From: Terriglobia bacterium
Lineage (GTDB): Bacteria > Acidobacteriota > Terriglobia > Bryobacterales > Bryobacteraceae
Reading direction: 5' to 3'
NCBI GenBank assembly: GCA_010084195.1
Contig: RGPS01000013.1
Span: 1 to 57,824 of the forward strand
DNA length: 57,824 nucleotides
Shown: one piece after another, positions 49,978 to 57,824 of the stretch
Position numbering within the stretch: position 1 is the stretch's first letter
How the letters are laid out: each line of letters starts with the position of its first letter
Made by a program: the position numbers and the translations under genes
The notes under the pieces: model-generated
Database searches by the model: none
What the model was told of the DNA's origin: nothing
The model's input: only the letters and a program-made list of their open reading frames with translations

Positions 49978-50889
49978 ATGCAATCAGACAGACCCAAGAT
50001 GCCGACAGAGGCAGTCAAGCTCTACAACCTGTTCATCCATGGCGACATCAATCGCCGCGACTTCATGGACGGCCTGCAGAAAATCGCCACCGCCAGCCTC
50101 GCAGTCGCCACCATGGTGGAGGCTCTCATGCCGAACTACGCGGCAGCCCAGCAGATCGCCCCCACTGACAACCGCATCAAGGCTTCTTACGAAACCATTC
50201 CTTCACCCAATGGCAATGGGACCATCAAGGGCTATTTCGTCCGCCCCATCAGCGCCGATACCCGCAATGCGATGCCCACCAAGCTGCCTGGCATTCTGGT
50301 AGTCCACGAAAATCGGGGCCTGAATCCTCACATCGAAGACCTTGCTCGTCGCATGGCGATGGCGAACTTCATGGCATTTGCTCCGGATGGCCTCACCTCG
50401 CAGGGCGGCTTCCCTGGTGATGACTACCGTGGTGGAGAGTTGTTCCGAAAAGTGGACGGAAAGAAGATGGCCGAAGATATGGTCGCCTCTGCCCTCTGGC
50501 TGAAAAACCGCCCCGATTGCACGGGCAAGATCGGCGTCACCGGCTTCTGCTACGGTGGTGGCATTTCCAACACGCTGGCGGTTCGGCTCGGAGCCGATCT
50601 GGCTGCAGCAGCGCCCTTCTACGGTGGCCCGCCCGCCAAAGAAGACGTTGCGAAGATCAAGGCAGCAGTCCTCGTCCACCACGGCGAACTGGATACCCGT
50701 CTGGCGGCAGGCTGGCCCACGTATGACGCTGCACTGAAAGATGCCGGTGCTCCGCACGAAGGCTACATCTATCCTGGAGCGGTACACGGCTTCAATTGCG
50801 ACGCGACACCAGAGCGCTACAACAAAGCGGCCGCAGACCTCGCCTGGCAGCGCACCATCGACTGGTTCAACAAGTACGTTCGGGGCTAA
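49978..50889 (+). CDS. Tat-exported dienelactone hydrolase family protein (YghX-like)
   Basis: A 303-residue alpha/beta-hydrolase of the dienelactone-hydrolase family. The N-terminal region has a twin-arginine-like motif 'NRRDFM' (25-30) and a hydrophobic stretch ending near 'AAAQQ'. Catalytic residues are visible: Glu111 ('VVHENRG'), nucleophile Cys191 ('GFCYGG'), Asp239 and His270 ('GAVHGF'). Substrate unknown. Its TAA overlaps the stop of the convergent Uma2 gene. Confidence 0.85.
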   Translation: MQSDRPKMPTEAVKLYNLFIHGDINRRDFMDGLQKIATASLAVATMVEALMPNYAAAQQIAPTDNRIKASYETIPSPNGNGTIKGYFVRPISADTRNAMPTKLPGILVVHENRGLNPHIEDLARRMAMANFMAFAPDGLTSQGGFPGDDYRGGELFRKVDGKKMAEDMVASALWLKNRPDCTGKIGVTGFCYGGGISNTLAVRLGADLAAAAPFYGGPPAKEDVAKIKAAVLVHHGELDTRLAAGWPTYDAALKDAGAPHEGYIYPGAVHGFNCDATPERYNKAAADLAWQRTIDWFNKYVRG

Positions 50890-51425
50890 GCTTCGAAGAT
50901 CGAATCGACAGCAAGGCTGCCTCCGAACATGAGCGGGATTTCATCCCCCGCTTTGTAGCTCCGGGGGCGGCCTTCCTGTTTTGAGACGCGCACCTGGCGG
51001 CGTTTTGGATCCACAACCCAGAATTCCAGGGTTCCGTTTTCGAGACACAGTTGTTCGCGGTCCAGCATTTCAGAGGCTGAATTTGAGGGCGAGAGAACTT
51101 CGACGACAAGTTCGGGAGCGCCTTCCAGATAGCCGTCGTCCGAACTGGCTGCCAGACGTGCCTTAGTAACAAAGGCGACATCCGCAATTCGGTAGTTACG
51201 GCCACCGGGGGTTCGAAATCCGACCTCCGTTAAAACCCGTCCGGCAGCGCGGAAGCGCGGAACGAGATTATCGGTCAGGTTGCCTTGAATAAGGGTATGT
51301 CCGAGCTTCGGTGGGGGCACTGAGATTACTTCTCCGTGGTGGAGTTCAAGACGATCACCATTCGTCGGGTCGGGCAGTTGCTCGAACTCAGCGAAAGTCA
51401 GCAGGGCGGTGGCGGTCGCGGTCAT
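50886..51425 (-). CDS. Uma2 family protein (PD-(D/E)XK nuclease fold), first copy
   Basis: A 179-residue Uma2 (DUF820) protein. The fold's acidic residues are Asp82 ('IADVAFV') and Glu109 ('LVVEVLSPS'), with the family ending 'EFWVVDPKRRQVRV'. Uma2 proteins occur in many copies in Cyanobacteria, Deinococcus and Acidobacteria; their function is not established. It is followed upstream by a second Uma2 gene on the same strand. Confidence 0.85.
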   Translation of the reverse strand: MTATATALLTFAEFEQLPDPTNGDRLELHHGEVISVPPPKLGHTLIQGNLTDNLVPRFRAAGRVLTEVGFRTPGGRNYRIADVAFVTKARLAASSDDGYLEGAPELVVEVLSPSNSASEMLDREQLCLENGTLEFWVVDPKRRQVRVSKQEGRPRSYKAGDEIPLMFGGSLAVDSIFEA

Positions 51426-51461
51426 TGCGTTGTCCTGTTCCTGATTGTAGCCCGAAACCGC

Positions 51462-52031
51462 TTAGAGCTCCACCCGAGCATATAAGCGGCTCAGCGACAG
51501 CCGGCAGCCGACACTGGCACATTCCACTTCCTCCGGCAGGTCGATATACTCGCGCATCAACCACGTTCCATCAGCTTGCCGGGTATGGTGCTCCACTCCA
51601 ATTCGGTCCTGCCGAATCAGCAAGTATTCAGCGAACGATGGCAGCGAGCGATAATACTCAAATTTCTCAGCGCGATCATAGTTGCTTGTAGAGGGTGAGA
51701 GAACCTCGATTATCAAAGTTGCATCGGTAACTGTATCCCTGCGTTCATCCAGAAACTGCTGCGACCCGCAAGTCACCAGAATATCGGCGTAAGTATACAC
51801 CTGATGGGCCAGGCTGTAGAGACGGAGGTCCGTTGCGAAGGGCTCACAAGGCGAGTCCACCAGCGCCGCATCCAGGCTTGTGAGCGCATTTCTGACAATT
51901 CGCGCATGATTGGCAGTTGCGCCGGCCATAGCGAACATGCGCCCGCCGATGTATTCGCTTCGGTGGGGTGCCTCGCGTTCGATGGCGAGGTATTCGTCAG
52001 GCGTCAGAAAGGTGGAGACTGGAAAGGCCAT
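51462..52031 (-). CDS. Uma2 family protein, second copy
   Basis: A 189-residue Uma2 protein with the N-terminal 'LTPDEYLAIEREAPHRSEYIGG' type start, 'MAGATANHARIVRNA', Asp83 ('YADILVT') and Glu109 ('LIIEVLSPS'). It differs strongly from its neighbour, so the pair is not a recent duplication. The 36-bp gap between them suggests cotranscription. The 72 bp upstream to the acyltransferase end hold nothing notable. Confidence 0.85.
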   Translation of the reverse strand: MAFPVSTFLTPDEYLAIEREAPHRSEYIGGRMFAMAGATANHARIVRNALTSLDAALVDSPCEPFATDLRLYSLAHQVYTYADILVTCGSQQFLDERRDTVTDATLIIEVLSPSTSNYDRAEKFEYYRSLPSFAEYLLIRQDRIGVEHHTRQADGTWLMREYIDLPEEVECASVGCRLSLSRLYARVEL

Positions 52032-52103
52032 GGAGTCGGTACCATAATCGCACTCTCCAGCCCCGTTTCTGGTGCCCGTACTTCGGAACTCCCTTCATGG
52101 ACG

Positions 52104-53153
52104 TTAGTCCCTACCCCCAAAACGTAACGAACCGGCATACCGCTGTGCCGGTCTTTCCACCAGCCGGTACAGCGCATATGCAGCGCCCACGCTCACCAAC
52201 CCAGCCACAAGAATGGCAACAAGGCTGGTGAAGTTTGAGCGTGGCAAGCGCTGTGCCAGATTGATAATTCGCCCCCCGATCGGCACGTGGATCAAATAGA
52301 GCGAATAGCTAATGGTGCCGAAGAAAGACAGCGCTGGACGGGCTAACCCCGCGCCAACCCACATTGGCGCGAACACAATCACCCCCGCAGTCCCGAGGCA
52401 AACCACCATACTTCCTGCCCCCAGCCCTGTATAAACCATCCCCGCGGCACTCAGCAGCACCAGCATCGTTTCTTTCGCAGAGCTCACTCTCGCGGTGAAC
52501 TGAAACACCGCTATTCCAATAACGAACTGGGCCAACTGGCTCGTGAGCGCCGCGTCAGCGGGTCGCCAGAATGATGCGGCGAGCAACACGGCCACCGCGC
52601 CCAGGCGCACTCCTCTGCGCGGGCTCGCAATCAGGGGATAAACAACCGCAATCAGCACGTAAAACTGGCACTCCACCGCCAGCGTCCAGAACACCGGATT
52701 GAGCCACTGCTGATGAACCAATGGAGTCAGGTAGCCCAGGTGCCATCCAATCTGAGCCAGATCCAGTCGAAATGGCTGTCCCCGATAGCCAGGTACCAGC
52801 GTCGATAGCCAGGCCAACAGCACCACCAGCAGGATCGTAATCAGATATGACGGCTCAATCCGCACCACCCTCTTCCACAGGAACCGCCGGAAGGTCCCCG
52901 CATTCAACTGATACCCCGCACGCCACAATGACCACGGCAGAATGAAGCCGGAGATGACAAAAAACACATCTACCCCGTAAAAACCGAAACCTCCGATACT
53001 CTTCAGTATCGGAGGTGCGTAAAACTCGGTATTCCCTACAGAAAAATGAAACAGAGCCACCGCTAACGCCGCCAGACCACGCAGCGAATCGATGACCGGA
53101 ACCCTTTCTGAATCTAGTATTTCGGCACGCTGGGGTCCACCGTGTCGCTCCAC
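52104..53153 (-). CDS. acyltransferase family 3 (OafA/YrhL-like) membrane protein
   Basis: A roughly 349-residue integral-membrane acyltransferase with about ten helices. Typical segments are 'VIDSLRGLAALAVALFHF' near the N-terminus with the catalytic-type His, 'GVDVFFVISGFI' and 'RIEPSYL'. Such enzymes O-acetylate polysaccharides, lipids or antibiotics. The start is unclear: no ATG lies near the first helix, so I use GTG 53153, which overlaps moeZ by 40 bp; another non-ATG start is possible. It is the last gene of the cysM-moeZ operon, which may not share its function. Confidence 0.75.
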   Translation of the reverse strand: MERHGGPQRAEILDSERVPVIDSLRGLAALAVALFHFSVGNTEFYAPPILKSIGGFGFYGVDVFFVISGFILPWSLWRAGYQLNAGTFRRFLWKRVVRIEPSYLITILLVVLLAWLSTLVPGYRGQPFRLDLAQIGWHLGYLTPLVHQQWLNPVFWTLAVECQFYVLIAVVYPLIASPRRGVRLGAVAVLLAASFWRPADAALTSQLAQFVIGIAVFQFTARVSSAKETMLVLLSAAGMVYTGLGAGSMVVCLGTAGVIVFAPMWVGAGLARPALSFFGTISYSLYLIHVPIGGRIINLAQRLPRSNFTSLVAILVAGLVSVGAAYALYRLVERPAQRYAGSLRFGGRD

Positions 53154-54277
53154 TTCGTGATGCCGCCCGTCATGTTCAGAACACTGGTAAAGCCGTTGGC
53201 CCGCAGAATATCGCAAGCCTTAGCGCTCCGTCCCCCCATCTTGCAATGGATCACAATGTCGTCGGCAGCATTCAGTTCACCCAACCTGTTCGCCACCTCG
53301 GCCAGCGGAATCAGAACAGAACCAGGGATCTTCGCAATCTGGTACTCATGCGGTTCGCGAACGTCCACCAGAACGAACTTGTCGCCCCGGTCCTGCTTCG
53401 CTTTTACTTCGGACGGCTGAATTTCGCCGGGTGCATTCACGTGTGTTTCCTCCACGGGTGCCTGTTGCGGCACGCCACAAAATTGGTGATAGTCGATCAG
53501 TTTCGTAATGGTCCGATGGTCACCGCACACCGGGCATTCCGGATTTTTCCGAAGTTTCAGTTCACGGAACTTCATCTCCAGAGCGTCATACAACAGCAGG
53601 CGCCCCACTAACGGCTTGCCCGTGCCCAAAATCAATTTCACGGTCTCGGTGGCCTGAATCAGGCCAATCACTCCAGGCAAAATCCCCAGCACTCCGCCTT
53701 CAGCGCAACTCGGCACCAGCCCCGGAGGCGGCGGCTCCGGATACAGGCAGCGATAGCACGGCCCCCCCTCGTAAGCGAAAACCGTCGCTTGCCCTTCGAA
53801 CCGAAAGATGGAACCATACACATTCGGCTTGCCCAACAGCACGCAGGCATCATTCACAAGATAACGCGTAGGGAAGTTATCGGTACCATCCACCACGTAA
53901 TCGTAGTCCTTGATGATGTCCAGAGCGTTCTCACTCGTCAGCGCCACTTCATGCCGTTCCAGCTGCACGAAGGGGTTAATATCCCGCATGCTCTCAATCG
54001 CGGAATCGATCTTCGGGCGCCCAACATCCTTGGTACCGTGAATCACCTGGCGTTGCAGGTTGGTGTAATCAACAACGTCGAAATCAACCAGGCCGATTCG
54101 ACCAATCCCCGCTGCCGTCAGATAAAGCGCCAGCGGAGCCCCCAGGCCCCCGGTCCCCACCAGCAGAACGCTCGCCTGCTTCAGTTTCAACTGGCCTTCC
54201 ATACCCACTTCGGGCATGATCAGGTGGCGGCTATAGCGAAGAATCTCTTCGTTGGAAAGTGTTACTTCAGCCGACAT
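53114..54277 (-). CDS. moeZ: MoeZ/ThiF-type sulfur-carrier adenylyltransferase with rhodanese domain
   Basis: A 387-residue fusion. The E1-like adenylation domain has 'LVGTGGLGAPLA' (39-50), 'DFDVVDYTNLQRQ', zinc cysteines (CYRC, CPVCG) and the conserved Cys in 'PSCAEGGVLG'. The C-terminal rhodanese domain carries the persulfide Cys in 'HCKMGGRS'. It would adenylylate the CysO C-terminus and convert it to a thiocarboxylate. ATG 54277 lies inside the last codons of cysO, giving an 11-bp overlap that encodes cysO's extra tail. Confidence 0.9.
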   Translation of the reverse strand: MSAEVTLSNEEILRYSRHLIMPEVGMEGQLKLKQASVLLVGTGGLGAPLALYLTAAGIGRIGLVDFDVVDYTNLQRQVIHGTKDVGRPKIDSAIESMRDINPFVQLERHEVALTSENALDIIKDYDYVVDGTDNFPTRYLVNDACVLLGKPNVYGSIFRFEGQATVFAYEGGPCYRCLYPEPPPPGLVPSCAEGGVLGILPGVIGLIQATETVKLILGTGKPLVGRLLLYDALEMKFRELKLRKNPECPVCGDHRTITKLIDYHQFCGVPQQAPVEETHVNAPGEIQPSEVKAKQDRGDKFVLVDVREPHEYQIAKIPGSVLIPLAEVANRLGELNAADDIVIHCKMGGRSAKACDILRANGFTSVLNMTGGITKWSDTVDPSVPKY

Positions 54278-54551
54278 GCTTTCCGCCTGCAATACTCGGA
54301 ACAATCGACAAAGTGTCGGAATCCGTTACCGCCGTGGCCTCTTTACCCGTGTACCGGATATCTTCGTCGTTCAGGTAAACATTCACGAAGCTGCGCAGTT
54401 TGCCCTCATCGTTATAAAGATTCTTCTTCAGCTCCGGGAATCTGGCGATCAGCGCTCCCATCACTTCGCCGACGGTCGCACCGGGCAATTCAACGTTGTC
54501 ATTTTTCTCCGCAAACTGCCGCAGCGGAGTGGGGATTAAGATTCGGGCCAT
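54267..54551 (-). CDS. cysO: CysO-like sulfur-carrier protein (MoaD/ThiS, ubiquitin-like) with masked Gly-Gly
   Basis: A 94-residue beta-grasp protein. 'FVNVYLNDEDIRYTGKEATA' closely follows the pattern of mycobacterial CysO, the thiocarboxylate sulfur donor for cysteine synthesis. Such carriers must end in Gly-Gly; here Gly89-Gly90 is followed by Lys-His-Val-Gly. Those four codons overlap the moeZ start. Activation would need removal of the tail, and the adjacent JAMM protease is the likely enzyme (precedent: QbsE/QbsD in Pseudomonas). It overlaps the protease gene by 16 bp. Confidence 0.88.
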   Translation of the reverse strand: MARILIPTPLRQFAEKNDNVELPGATVGEVMGALIARFPELKKNLYNDEGKLRSFVNVYLNDEDIRYTGKEATAVTDSDTLSIVPSIAGGKHVG

Positions 54552-54961
54552 GTAAGTTCCTCTTTTTCAGCGTGTGTCTGTTCTGCGTTTGGCAGCCAGC
54601 TGTTCGCGTGATCAAACGACCCGTTCTGGATCGACAGCACGACGAACGAATACCAGGGGCACGAATTCTTCAGGTCAGTCTCTGAAAAATAGGCCCCGCA
54701 ATCGGGGTGTGAATGATAAATGCCGATCATATCCAGCCCGAGCCGCCGGGCTTCGCGATCAGCCTTCAATAAATCTTCCGGACGAAGCTCGTAGCGCGCC
54801 GCCTGCGAGCCCTGCGAGACATTGTCCAGCAGCATCGCCACAGTAACGACTTTGTTATCGCCATCAACGGTGCCAAGCATCGCCCCGCAGCATTCATTCG
54901 GATAAACAGCCTGCGCGTGATTAACCATCTCGCGCCACGGCGCGCGTTCTATATGGACCAT
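54536..54961 (-). CDS. mec: Mec+-like M67 (JAMM/MPN+) metallopeptidase
   Basis: A 141-residue zinc protease. The JAMM motif is complete: Glu23 ('PNECCG'), His83-x-His85 ('YHSHPDCGAYFSETD'), Ser93 and Asp96. In Mycobacterium the orthologous Mec+ releases cysteine from the CysO-cysteine adduct. In other ThiS-like systems a JAMM protease trims extra residues to expose Gly-Gly; here it may do both. It overlaps cysM by 13 bp and cysO by 16 bp. Confidence 0.9.
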   Translation of the reverse strand: MVHIERAPWREMVNHAQAVYPNECCGAMLGTVDGDNKVVTVAMLLDNVSQGSQAARYELRPEDLLKADREARRLGLDMIGIYHSHPDCGAYFSETDLKNSCPWYSFVVLSIQNGSFDHANSWLPNAEQTHAEKEELTWPES

Positions 54962-55890
54962 GAATCAGTACCCATTTCGGGATCATCCCAGAAGTGTTCC
55001 GTCAAATACTTGTCCGCACCATCGCAGAGAATGGTCACAATCACCCCACTCTTGCCCTGAGCATGCAGTTCGCGCGCAACAGTTAATGCCGCATGAACAT
55101 TCCCGCCGGCAGAGATGCCCACCAGGACGCCCTCTTCGCGCGCCAGCCGCCGTACCATCTTATATGCGTCTTCGGTCTCAATCCACAAATTGCGGTTCGC
55201 AATCGTGTCATCGTAAATCCGGGGCACAATTGCCGTCGGCATATGCTTCGTGCCTTCCAGGCCATGGAAACCCGTCGCCGGCTGCGCCGAGATGCACTCC
55301 ACTCCGGGAACATCCTGCTGCAAACGCCGTGCAGTCCCCACAAAAGTGCCACTCGTGCCCAGCAGCGTCACAAAGTGTGTCACCCGGCCCGCAGTCTGCT
55401 CAATAATCTCAGGCCCCGTCGTATTGAAATGGGCACGCCAGTTGGCATCGTTGCTGTACTGGTCCGGATAGAAATAGCGGTCCGGATCAGCGTGGTAAAT
55501 CTCCCGAACCCTCCGAATTGCCCCGTCCGACCCCTCTTCGGCTGCCGTCAGCACAAGTTCCGCCCCATACGCCTTCAGGATGCGCTTCCGTTCGGGCGAC
55601 GCGTTCTTCGGCAGGCAGAGCTTCACTTTATAGCCCCGGGCCGCCCCGATCATCGCATAAGCGATGCCCGTATTCCCGCTCGTGGAATCGATCAGGACCT
55701 TGTCCGCCGTCATCGCCCCCGAATGCTCCCCTTCGAGGATCATGTTCAGCGCCGGGCGATCTTTTACCGAGCCGCCAGGGTTGAAATACTCAGCCTTGCC
55801 GTAGATCTCAATGCCAGGCAAGCCCGCCGCAATCTTGTTCAGACGCAGCAGTGGCGTCTTGCCGATATTGCCGGTGAGGTCATGTGACAT
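54949..55890 (-). CDS. cysM: PLP-dependent cysteine synthase (CysM type)
   Basis: A 313-residue fold-type II enzyme. The PLP lysine is Lys43 in 'NPGGSVKDRP'; 'STSGNTG' (69-75) binds substrate, and 'LGTSGTFVGTARRL' and 'GISAGGNVHAAL' bind the cofactor phosphate and pyridine regions. Given the linked cysO, mec and moeZ, it probably uses protein thiocarboxylate (with O-phosphoserine or O-acetylserine) rather than free sulfide; the substrate is inference. ATG 55890 is used, though an in-frame ATG 15 bp upstream exists. It heads the operon. Confidence 0.9.
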   Translation of the reverse strand: MSHDLTGNIGKTPLLRLNKIAAGLPGIEIYGKAEYFNPGGSVKDRPALNMILEGEHSGAMTADKVLIDSTSGNTGIAYAMIGAARGYKVKLCLPKNASPERKRILKAYGAELVLTAAEEGSDGAIRRVREIYHADPDRYFYPDQYSNDANWRAHFNTTGPEIIEQTAGRVTHFVTLLGTSGTFVGTARRLQQDVPGVECISAQPATGFHGLEGTKHMPTAIVPRIYDDTIANRNLWIETEDAYKMVRRLAREEGVLVGISAGGNVHAALTVARELHAQGKSGVIVTILCDGADKYLTEHFWDDPEMGTDSWSI

Positions 55891-55903
55891 GGGGAATCTG
55901 AAC

Positions 55904-55928
55904 AATCTCTATCTTACAATTAGAGATT
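55904..55928. promoter_or_regulatory. inverted repeat between divergent cysM and GT9
   Basis: AATCTCTA (55904-55911) and TAGAGATT (55921-55928) are perfect 8-bp arms with a 9-bp spacer, in the 71-bp control region shared by cysM (minus) and the GT9 gene (plus). The centre contains TTACAAT, which may serve as a -10. It is a good candidate operator, possibly for a cysteine- or sulfur-responsive regulator. Confidence 0.45.
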
Positions 55929-55961
55929 CAATTTCAGCCCCCTTCGATTCAGACCCTCACC

Positions 55962-56699
55962 ATGCGCCGACTTTTGATCCGCCCCGGTGCCATCGGCGAC
56001 TTTATTGTCAGCCTGCCTGCTCTCGAAGCGCTGCGCGCCGCCTACACAGAAGTCTGGTGCGCCGAACAGAACGTCCCGCTGGCGAAGTTTGCCGACCGGG
56101 CCCTGTCGCTGGGCACCTCGGGCCTGAACCGTCTGGGCCTCCTTCCGGCAGACGATGTCATCGCCCGGCTGCGCACATTTGACAGCATCGTTTCCTGGTC
56201 AGCCACCGGCAGGGAGGAGCTTCTCCGCCTCGGCCTGCCCGTTACGTTCCTGCCCGCTTTACCCCCCCACGGAAGCCACGCAACAAGCTGGTACAACCAA
56301 CAGGCGAGGCAACTCGGAGCGGCCCGGATCACCTGGAATCCCTCGATTTCGTGTCCACAGCGGCAGCGTACGTTCGCGGCGATTCACCCGTTTGCCAGCA
56401 GCCCGGCGAAACGCGCGCCCCTGGAGCTATTCCGCCAGCACGCCGCACGCCTGGCCGAACACATGCCTGTCCACTGGCTCGCCGGACCCGACGAAGACCT
56501 GCCCGGAGCGATCCGCATCCCCAACCTCTACGACCTCGCCTGCTGGCTGGCAGGTGCGAAGGTCTATCTCGGCAATGATTCCGGGATCTCTCACCTCGCC
56601 GCTGCGGTCGGGACGCCAACCTTGGCTCTGTTTTCAGCCACCAAACCGCGCGACTGGTCACCCCGCGGCACCGTCCATGCCGTCCGGCTGTCGTTGTAA
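55962..56699 (+). CDS. compact family 9 glycosyltransferase (heptosyltransferase-like)
   Basis: A 245-residue GT-B-type enzyme, about 80-100 residues shorter than usual heptosyltransferases. 'LLIRPGAIGDFIVSLPALEALR' (4-25) is the N-terminal signature and 'AKVYLGNDSGISHLAAAVGTPTLALFSATKP' (two adjoining stretches) the C-terminal donor site. Both domains are therefore present in shortened form. It probably acts in lipopolysaccharide or glycan assembly. It converges with the broken PIN gene. Confidence 0.85.
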   Translation: MRRLLIRPGAIGDFIVSLPALEALRAAYTEVWCAEQNVPLAKFADRALSLGTSGLNRLGLLPADDVIARLRTFDSIVSWSATGREELLRLGLPVTFLPALPPHGSHATSWYNQQARQLGAARITWNPSISCPQRQRTFAAIHPFASSPAKRAPLELFRQHAARLAEHMPVHWLAGPDEDLPGAIRIPNLYDLACWLAGAKVYLGNDSGISHLAAAVGTPTLALFSATKPRDWSPRGTVHAVRLSL

Positions 56700-56777
56700 A
56701 GGCCGGGCGGGTCCGGCTGGTATGCATGAAGAAGGCAAAGACTGGCAGCCGAGGGCTCTCCATGTTCGCCGCCGTCG

Positions 56778-57166
56778 CTAAGGCTCTTTTGAATCGGTGT
56801 TCCGAGTGGCAATCACCAAACCACCACATTGAGCGGTCGCAGCCAGAAACGCGTCCATCGGATTGAGAGTAGTGCCCTCCCTGCTCGCCTTAGCCACAAT
56901 CACGCCCCAGACCTCCGCCACTTCGGCGTCAACGGGCAGCGTCCGGCCCTCAAATCTGACCCGAACGTCCCATCGTAACCACCGCTGCAGCCGCTCCCGC
57001 CTGGCGCCATGATCCAGCCTCTCGATCCCACGGCCAAGCTCAGCAATAGAGATCACACTCAGAAAAACTGAATCTCCGTCAACCGTGGCAAGCCAATTGA
57101 CCACACTGAGGTCTGGCCGGGGTTGGTCCACTCCGAAATGACATTCGTGTCGAGAAGAACTTTCAC
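56778..57166 (-). pseudogene. VapC/FitB-like PIN-domain toxin with two frameshifts
   Basis: GTG 57166 (overlapping the antitoxin TGA) begins 'VKVLLDTNVISEWT', the PIN N-terminus with its first catalytic Asp. Near 57121-57128 the frame shifts by one base, and the domain continues in another frame as 'PRPDLSVVNWL', 'SVISIAELGRGIERL' and 'NPMDAFLAATA', holding the other acidic residues. A second shift just after 'IATRNTD' cuts the C-terminus; the shifted frame reads 'DFKRA' as relatives do. The toxin should be inactive unless the shifts are sequencing errors. Confidence 0.7.
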
Positions 57167-57423
57167 AACTCAATCGCGGGTGCCAGCTCAGACCGCTCAA
57201 GAACCAGTCCCGCGCCAGGCAGGGGAGAGGCAGCGAAAAAATCAGCCAGCGTGCCGCTTCGAATGCTCTTCCGCTCCCACTCTTCAGTCGAGACAATGAC
57301 AACCGCGCTCGCGCCATCGCGAGTGATTACTTGGGGTCCAACCCGGATCGCCTGGTCGACGACTTCCCCCAAGTGGGCCGTAGCGTCGGCCAGACTCCAG
57401 CTTTCAGAGGTAATTGGCGTCAT
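57163..57423 (-). CDS. Phd/YefM-type antitoxin
   Basis: An 86-residue antitoxin: 'SWSLADATAHLGEVVDQA' and 'VITRDGASAVVIVSTEEW' form the Phd/YefM DNA-binding fold, and the C-terminal ~30 residues would neutralise the toxin. ATG 57423 has a strong Shine-Dalgarno sequence (GGAGAG), so I prefer it to the in-frame ATG 48 bp upstream. It is intact although its PIN partner is frameshifted. It probably autorepresses the pair through upstream inverted repeats. Confidence 0.85.
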   Translation of the reverse strand: MTPITSESWSLADATAHLGEVVDQAIRVGPQVITRDGASAVVIVSTEEWERKSIRSGTLADFFAASPLPGAGLVLERSELAPAIEL

Positions 57424-57474
57424 ATCATTCTCTCCTTCAGCCGTCCGATTCGAAAAGCCGTCTGCGGGCAAATT

Positions 57475-57511
57475 AGTGGGTCACATCCCCCGAGACTTTA
57501 TTTTACCCACT
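57475..57511. promoter_or_regulatory. inverted repeat upstream of the antitoxin
   Basis: AGTGGGT (57475-57481) and ACCCACT (57505-57511) are perfect arms offset by exactly 30 bp, followed by TTTTT. The three-helical-turn spacing would suit binding of two antitoxin dimers. On the plus strand it could also be a poor terminator. The rest of 57424-57631 shows no gene. Confidence 0.3.
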
Positions 57512-57631
57512 TTTTCAATAACATCCCGCCCCTCAGCCAAGATCTTGCAAACCCCGCCTGCTAACTCTCAAACCAGGGAAGCCAAAAATCCACGCTCCCC
57601 AACAACATCCAACAAAGAAAGAGAGCCACCG

Positions 57632-57824
57632 ATGTCCAACAAATCGCAGAACGGCGCCAACACCCCCATCTCCGCCAGCAAACACCTGGCCAACATAGCC
57701 AACGCCCTCCACTCCACTGGCCCGCGTACCGAAGCCGGCAAATCCAAATCCTCCATGAACGCCCGCCGCCACGGCCTAACCGGCCAGTTCTACGTCATGA
57801 ACGAAGCCGACCGCCTCGCCTACA
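57632..57824 (+). CDS. hypothetical protein of the 'ARRHGLTGQ' family, 3'-truncated by window edge
   Basis: The first 64 codons of a gene that runs off the window. 'LHSTGPRTEAGKSKSSMNARR' with the following 'HGLTGQFYVMNEAD' matches a family abundant in Acidobacteria and Planctomycetes, often in many copies. Its function is unknown. The start codon ATG 57632 follows a GAAAGAGAG stretch as a ribosome-binding site. The remaining length cannot be judged. Confidence 0.6.
   Translation, partial: MSNKSQNGANTPISASKHLANIANALHSTGPRTEAGKSKSSMNARRHGLTGQFYVMNEADRLAY

Follow-up and report, generated by a model that had tools for sequence, protein, structure and literature searches.

A CysO-type operon of Acidobacteriota with masked carriers and a tail that overlaps the next gene

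The operon and its closest described relatives

Mycobacterial CysO, CysM, Mec+, and MoeZ belong to the same four protein families as the products of an operon located in a 57,824-nucleotide stretch of DNA from a Terriglobia bacterium of the phylum Acidobacteriota (contig RGPS01000013.1; hereafter, the window). The operon runs from position 55890 to 53114 on the minus strand and comprises, in this order, cysM and genes for a JAMM protease, a carrier of the ThiS/MoaD fold, and a ThiF-rhodanese protein (E1), each of which overlaps the gene before it (Table 1). The carrier aligns with CysO nearly over its full length (residues 4-90), and its closest solved structures are mycobacterial CysO (3dwg, E 3.5e-16) and 4n6e (E 3.7e-16). 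The matched chains of both structures stop at Gly-Gly, whereas the window carrier ends in PSIAGGKHVG and extends four residues past Gly89-Gly90. As in a CysO pathway, a CysO-like carrier, an intact Mec+-like JAMM protease, and an E1 with a C-terminal rhodanese domain are all encoded, but in place of a free C-terminal Gly-Gly, the carrier has AGG-KHVG. We propose that the operon is probably a CysO-type sulfur-transfer system whose carrier is made as a pro-protein and is trimmed by the JAMM protease.

A sequence-only reading of this DNA had described the four overlapping genes, the masked carrier end, and a complete JAMM active site. The genes were located with Pfam matches, the carrier end reads as stated, and all five catalytic residues are present. 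The JAMM gene is the sole PF14464 match in its own genome, which also holds a single carrier match at E values up to 1e-4. Among solved structures related to the window cysM product are the CysM enzymes of E. coli and M. tuberculosis, and the best NCBIfam model of this product is TIGR01138 (cysM), at 347.9 bits, which is under the cut-off of 394.2. The enzyme may or may not be specific for O-phosphoserine: one of its lysines lies near the arginine that we take to be position 220 of mycobacterial CysM.

Operon type 4c of Iyer 2006 consists of ThiS/MoaD, E1-rhodanese, JAB, and cysteine synthase genes and is listed for 'Acidobacteria: Susi', and the same paper proposes that JAB proteins release carriers that are fused to other proteins (PMC1779556). 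The gene set of the window matches type 4c, falls within its definition, and comes from the same phylum. We take 'Susi' to be Solibacter usitatus. In the portions covered, that paper is silent on separate carriers with a masked end, on fusion of carrier and E1 within type 4c, and on any relation between a tail and E1.

Carriers that are released from larger proteins also are known. M. tuberculosis MoaX needs to be cut after Gly82, which is done by a protease left unidentified (PMC4326299), and Deinococcus DRJAMM cuts a MoaD-MoaE fusion (PMC8832034). In both, a carrier fused to a partner is released after Gly-Gly, as proposed here, and a JAMM protein is named for Deinococcus; however, these are molybdopterin synthase proteins fused to MoaE, whereas the fusions described below are to E1. 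QbsE of Pseudomonas (thioquinolobactin) and HcyS of Wolinella (homocysteine) reportedly have residues after the carrier Gly-Gly that are removed by the JAMM proteins QbsD and HcyD, respectively. Both systems are said to differ from the window operon in end product and partner enzymes. Like the QbsE/QbsD type, the window has a carrier that extends past Gly-Gly and lies next to a JAMM gene, but the carboxylate AMP-ligase and siderophore genes that reportedly belong to this type are not in the window cluster (positions 50500-57824). The pro-carrier concept is a variant of known systems and is older than the sequence-only reading implies, although that reading also named QbsE and QbsD.

Residues after Gly-Gly in relatives

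The carrier's Gly-Gly is masked in nearly all JAMM-linked relatives examined within Acidobacteriota. Carrier matches were found in 191 of 396 genomes of a phylum draw (E up to 1e-4) and in 355 of 399 genomes of a class draw (E up to 1e-15); a scan for JAMM relatives gave 69 loci and, unlike the carrier searches, selects JAMM by design. Part of the matches were fetched: 30 loci per draw, 24 loci of a JAMM search, and 200 chosen regions. The pooled set of 360 loci holds 340 carrier rows of at least 60 bits, of which 307 are distinct and 302 are from Acidobacteriota; other phyla were sampled via plasmid records only. A carrier is termed JAMM-linked if a JAMM gene lies at most 600 nucleotides upstream on the same strand, and fused if its frame is open into E1 without a stop codon.

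Among the 265 distinct JAMM-linked Acidobacteriota carriers, 149 have a tail of 1-31 amino acids, 115 are in frame with E1, and a single one (L307) ends in bare Gly-Gly. Grouping at 90% identity gives 213 clusters (122 tailed, 90 fused, 1 bare), so that 212 of 213 are masked. The Gly-Gly is itself kept in all 265, as PSIAGG (216), PSVAGG (36), PAIAGG (12), or PAVAGG (1). The tails comprise 117 distinct peptides with 18 different first residues, and in the fusions, Gly-Gly is followed by Ser, Ala, Thr, or Val in 106 of 115 cases. All five JAMM catalytic residues are kept in 189 of 190 relatives, the other being L121, which lacks the first part of the gene in the fetched stretch. A cysM gene lies at most 1500 nucleotides upstream in 226 of the 265. 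The other 37 Acidobacteriota carriers, which are not JAMM-linked, include 21 tailed, 9 fused, and 7 bare examples.

Relatives with the same operon end in AGGAHVG, AGGKNVG, AGGSHVG, or AGGKNVR. The sequence-only reading had allowed that orthologs all ending in Gly-Gly would point to a sequencing error in the window. Nothing was found in favor of a sequencing or frameshift artefact that hides a true Gly-Gly end, and because 264 of 265 relatives carry a tail or a fusion, such an artefact is almost inconceivable. A fixed tail signal was rejected in view of the 117 distinct peptides. A conserved programmed frameshift into E1 seems disfavored, with E1 starting +1, +4, +5, +7, or other distances past Gly-Gly and in differing frames.

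A midpoint-rooted FastTree phylogeny was built from 244 E1 proteins, and changes between fused and separate states were counted by parsimony. The tree requires at least 21 changes of state, compared with 69-89 in 200 label shuffles. In L135, the JAMM protease, carrier, and E1-rhodanese form a single open frame of 619 amino acids, and in L319, the JAMM protease and carrier share one open frame. The masking rule, the kept JAMM site, and the minimum of 21 state changes are as expected if a protease cuts after Gly-Gly. Judged from these sequences, the pattern across relatives is that of a cut linker rather than a working end. The proposal of a pro-protein version of the CysO pathway is partly supported by these data. 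The four-residue tail on which it was built is not special: tails vary freely in length and sequence, and the E1 gene starts within the tail codons.

The observed gene order, tail, catalytic residues, and pattern in relatives can be combined with chemistry borrowed from CysO, CysM, Mec+, and MoeZ (PMC3227635). The JAMM protease would first cut after Gly90 and release KHVG. Homology suggests that E1-rhodanese would then adenylylate the freed Gly-Gly and convert it to a thiocarboxylate, after which CysM would join the carrier sulfur to an activated serine to give carrier-cysteine. By analogy with Mec+, the same JAMM protease would cut again after Gly-Gly and free the cysteine. The use of one protease for both cuts seems reasonable, because both would be hydrolysis after the same Gly-Gly. 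Because the protease would remove whatever follows Gly-Gly, the tail could drift, grow, carry signals, or run into E1.

Several observations weigh against this proposal. L307 has a JAMM gene upstream and E1 108 nucleotides downstream, yet its carrier ends in bare Gly-Gly, so a tail is not obligatory. The actinobacterial JAMM-linked carriers of L246 and L248 also are bare, which shows that a tail does not follow from JAMM linkage by itself; L248 (Tsukamurella) has the order JAMM-CysO-CysM and no E1 in the fetched 6.3 kb. The seven bare JAMM-less carriers of Acidobacteriota are paralogs, of which several lie next to a threonine-synthase-like gene (as judged by eye), and the association with JAMM is thus partly phylogenetic. 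Moreover, the best NCBIfam model for the window carrier is the archaeal protein modifier SAMP1 (60.7 bits, cut-off 60), E1 passes two MoeB models (PRK08762, at 477.6 versus 449 bits, and another at 313.5 versus 266) rather than a MoeZ model, and the genome itself has a CysE match above the cut-off (247.8 bits).

The SAMP1 match raises the alternative of ubiquitin-like modification, in which E1 activates the carrier for isopeptide conjugation, the JAMM protease matures it and takes it off its targets in the manner of a desampylase, and cysM is a side partner. The best NCBIfam model of the JAMM protein is indeed desampylase (60.6 bits), although its cut-off of 130 is not reached, and conjugation has been predicted for JAB-associated E1s (Iyer 2006, PMC1779556). 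However, cysM accompanies most JAMM-linked relatives, the four operon genes include no E2, and among solved structures the carrier matches CysO best, which together make this alternative quite improbable.

The MoeB and CysE matches instead fit a carrier whose sulfur goes mainly into tRNA thiolation, molybdopterin, or a secondary metabolite rather than into cysteine. The CysE match means that a classical cysteine route may exist as well, the carrier may serve other products, and mycobacterial MoeZ serves both cysteine and molybdenum cofactor synthesis (PMC3227635). The window E1 scores 604.7 bits with PRK07411 and 508.2 bits with PRK07878 (MoeZ), both under their cut-offs. A main role outside cysteine synthesis nevertheless appears unlikely, given the linkage of cysM in 226 of 265 relatives and the linkage of a Mec+-like JAMM gene. 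A missing CysE route was discarded as support for the CysO-type reading: a CysE-family match at some level occurs in 387 of 396 genomes, and 34 of them, including that of the window, have one above the cut-off.

Further carriers of the family occur outside the JAMM-linked set. CysO-like paralogs beside a threonine-synthase-like gene (by eye) were seen in L197, on the minus strand of L163, and in L207, L199, and L209; they end in bare Gly-Gly or have one extra Cys, and the locus has no JAMM gene. L196, L198, and L202 contain a further tailed carrier near an E1-like gene, in genomes with three JAB matches, none of which lies in these loci. Beyond Acidobacteriota, the carrier of Aliarcobacter ends in AGGI with E1 next to it and that of Burkholderia in AGGRS, while those of Nonomuraea, Tsukamurella, and Piscinibacter are bare. 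In Aliarcobacter, cysM and JAMM genes are followed by an insertion element, the carrier, and an E1 frame that starts at the carrier stop codon; another insertion element precedes the rhodanese part of E1. This operon (L245, plasmid pACIB of Aliarcobacter cibarius) lies upstream of rhodanese and family 2A encapsulin genes with a cysteine desulfurase cargo. A Pseudanabaena record contains a JAMM gene, and no carrier was found in the fetched stretch.

Tail codons, the E1 start, and cysteine-rich tails

Masked carriers are usually followed directly by E1. E1 is adjoining or fused in 271 of 292 masked Acidobacteriota carriers, compared with 1 of 8 bare ones. The window's group is the window's family plus the loci from the JAMM-relative scan, roughly half of which are named as Bryobacterales, Bryobacteraceae, or Solibacter. 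An E1 start was assigned to 47 of the 48 tailed loci in this group; 31 of these starts fall within the tail, 12 more follow the carrier stop codon by at most 12 nucleotides, and one (L042) precedes Gly-Gly. On this evidence, the tail seems best interpreted as the start region of E1, translated in the frame of the carrier. Such a tail could be kept because the JAMM protease would remove it. The 11-nucleotide overlap of the tail with the E1 start would couple translation of E1 to that of the carrier. Against pure coupling stand the 21 of 292 masked carriers that have no adjoining E1. Among 110 fusion linkers, 4 contain ATG, 81 contain GTG or TTG but no ATG, and 25 contain none of these, so a separate E1 start is possible in fused loci.

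The same overlap could mean that the tail is purely a by-product of the gene arrangement, trimmed by the JAMM protease or by any carboxypeptidase and not seen by selection. In the window and in those 31 loci of its group, the tail letters are explained by overlap with the start of E1, and the tail sequences are free. However, a zero-length tail would fit an ATGA overlap, yet on the E1 tree this length is seen in only 1 of 136 separate carriers (1 change). Tails of one residue (19 tips, at least 12 changes) and two residues (21 tips, at least 15 changes) are far more frequent. These counts and the codon usage of the tails described next make a pure by-product rather doubtful.

The tails of two families of relatives, f2 (in the window's class) and f90, are rich in cysteine. 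In 54 distinct JAMM-linked f2 tails, Cys makes up 94 of 461 residues and occurs in 38 tails. These Cys codons are the rare TGT in 82 cases and TGC in 12, whereas TGT occurs 84 times and TGC 818 times in the accompanying cysM, JAMM, and E1 genes (Fisher p 2e-59, which is overstated because related loci are not independent). TGT or TGC triplets are found at 94 of 461 positions in frame, but at only 2 of 407 and 10 of 407 in the other two frames. The last eight residues of the other proteins of these loci have Cys at 5 of 520 (JAMM), 0 of 488 (CysM), and 0 of 544 (E1) positions, and the 30 residues before the tail have none in 2,310. In f90, Cys accounts for 22 of 100 tail residues and occurs in 11 of 12 tails, with 16 TGT and 6 TGC codons, compared with 21 and 111 in the enzymes. 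Tails of the window's own family contain no Cys in 27 residues, and those of the JAMM-relative scan loci contain 1 in 116. Counted by cluster, tails with Cys number 33 of 46 in f2, 10 of 11 in f90, and 0 of 39 in the window's group. In both families, a Cys-rich tail whose codon preference runs counter to that of the operon's own enzymes is difficult to regard as neutral, which argues further against a pure by-product.

A Cys tail and an overlap with E1 are almost mutually exclusive: E1 begins more than 12 nucleotides away in 57 of 59 Cys-tailed loci, whereas 51 of 75 Cys-free loci have an overlap or a gap of at most 12 nucleotides. Family f2 includes, for example, L122, L147, L167, L177, L270, and L282; E1 starts 60-222 nucleotides past the stop codon in 41 of its 42 placed Cys-tailed loci. 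The f90 loci, with their Cys-rich and mainly TGT pro-tails, fall in the range L324-L360. In L108, L145, L293, and L294, the encoded end is AGG-Cys, which is the sequence of the expected carrier-cysteine product.

In the 11 Cys-tailed f90 loci (L324, L326, L327, L328, L331, L333, L334, L336, L339, L340, and L360), a stem begins at the last base of the carrier stop codon. Standard pairs fill 90.8% of its pair cells. Covariation also supports the stem: 15 cells are changed on both sides, compared with 5.9 +/- 1.9 in shuffled data (0 of 500 shuffles reach 15), and most of this signal is lost if the partner is slid by 1-3 columns. A search with Rfam found no family at gathering score in 20 loci, among them nine of the eleven hairpin loci. 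Fold energies of the gaps give a modest signal: z averages -2.14 in Cys-tailed f90 loci (below -2 in 5 of 10), -1.2 in Cys-tailed f2 loci (below -2 in 14 of 41), and -0.37 in Cys-free f2 loci (below -2 in 1 of 8). A consensus scan of one relative, L167, found no intrinsic terminator in the gap.

The hairpin was rejected as a general element. A model built from the 11 sequences gives 9 matches at E values up to 1 in 97 other loci, and one of them is at a carrier stop codon (L332, E 0.5, another family with a similar stem). Seven of the remaining matches lie 570-669 nucleotides past the stop codon, beyond the E1 start, and one lies 810 nucleotides before it.

We tentatively suggest that in these relatives, the pro-tail is a regulatory site within a protein, with Cys codons that sense cysteine and, in f90, a hairpin that controls E1. 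A ribosome finishing the carrier would slow at the Cys codons if charged tRNA-Cys is short, which would leave the hairpin open and E1 expression up. With enough cysteine, the hairpin would form and E1 expression would be low. The JAMM protease would then cut off the sensor peptide. As part of the same tentative suggestion, the window might represent another form of regulatory tail, in which the E1 start codon is buried in the tail.

Cysteine sensing is a hypothesis whose best support from these alignments is in f90. The first f90 Cys codon varies between TGT and TGC, yet Cys is present in 11 of 11 loci, which points to decoding rather than RNA sequence as the conserved property. Some findings speak against a sensor. 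Tail Cys is present in 10 of the 21 masked carriers with no adjoining E1 (L152, L194, L198, L199, L203, L209, L286, L288, L292, and L293), so Cys tails need no E1, and 12 of 54 placed f2 loci have no Cys. The TGT bias of f90 is due to the second Cys codon (TGT in 11 of 11), because the first is TGT in 5 loci and TGC in 6. Also, Cys directly after Gly-Gly, as in L108 and L145, could instead mimic carrier-cysteine for the JAMM protease.

Cysteine-codon leaders are known in mycobacteria, where they are separate short open reading frames before sulfur-metabolism genes (PMC1262725), and mycobacterial polycysteine leader reading frames are attributed in other papers to Canestrari 2020. The leader is thus a reading frame of its own in mycobacteria, whereas in the relatives of the window, the run of Cys codons is the end of a working protein.

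Features of the window and implications

The features of the operon are collected in Table 1. Within positions 50500-57824, it is flanked by an Acyl_transf_3 gene on one side and by a divergent Glyco_transf_9 gene on the other. Also on the minus strand, overlapping frames for a PIN-domain protein and a Phd/YefM antitoxin (56778-57317 and 57163-57429) form a probable toxin-antitoxin pair, and two Uma2-family genes are adjacent to each other (50886-51425 and 51462-52031).

Table 1. Features of the CysO-type operon in window coordinates
Feature	Positions	Strand	Basis
cysM-like pyridoxal phosphate enzyme (cysteine synthase / O-phosphoserine or O-acetylserine sulfhydrylase), 313 amino acids	54949..55890	-	PF00291 PALP 5.5e-64
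JAMM/MPN+ metalloprotease (Mec+-like), 141 amino acids; overlaps cysM by 13 nucleotides	54536..54961	-	PF14464 Prok-JAB 1.1e-24
JAMM active-site codons, Glu23 to Asp96 (E23, H83-x-H85, S93, D96)	54674..54895	-	residues read
CysO-like ThiS/MoaD-fold carrier, predicted pro-form, 94 amino acids; overlaps JAMM by 16 nucleotides	54267..54551	-	PF02597 ThiS 3.3e-12, residues 4-90
Gly89-Gly90 codons, expected mature C-terminus	54282..54287	-	alignment to CysO, matched chain ends here
Tail Lys-His-Val-Gly, expected to be removed	54270..54281	-	stop codon 54267-54269
ATG of the E1 gene, within the tail codons (11-nucleotide overlap of carrier and E1)	54275..54277	-	+4 after the second Gly codon
MoeZ-type E1-rhodanese, 387 amino acids	53114..54277	-	PF00899 ThiF 1.2e-82, PF00581 Rhodanese 4.1e-18
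E1 domain, ThiF	about 53528-54235	-	calculated from Pfam residue positions
E1 domain, rhodanese	about 53144-53416	-	calculated from Pfam residue positions

Literature searches, from which subscription journals were mostly absent, returned no title or opening lines on tailed or fused CysO, or on cysteine-codon tails, in Acidobacteriota. Work on Granulicella mentions a gene product annotated as cysO (PMC7315648), which may or may not correspond to this carrier. As far as this literature extends, what is new is that masking is widespread among CysO-type operons of Acidobacteriota, that carrier and E1 can share a frame, that the tail is linked to the E1 start, and that cysteine-codon tails occur with a stop-codon hairpin.

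Eukaryotic ubiquitin and its relatives are made as pro-proteins, and the operon family offers a natural experiment on ubiquitin-like carriers turning into pro-proteins. The surprising part looks like the use of a throw-away tail to control the next gene. If this is true, a post-translational cut would lift protein constraint from a gene's end, and the freed stretch would be reused to control the gene that follows. Overlap with a start codon, sensing through cysteine codons, and run-on into an enzyme would then all occur within one operon family of one phylum.

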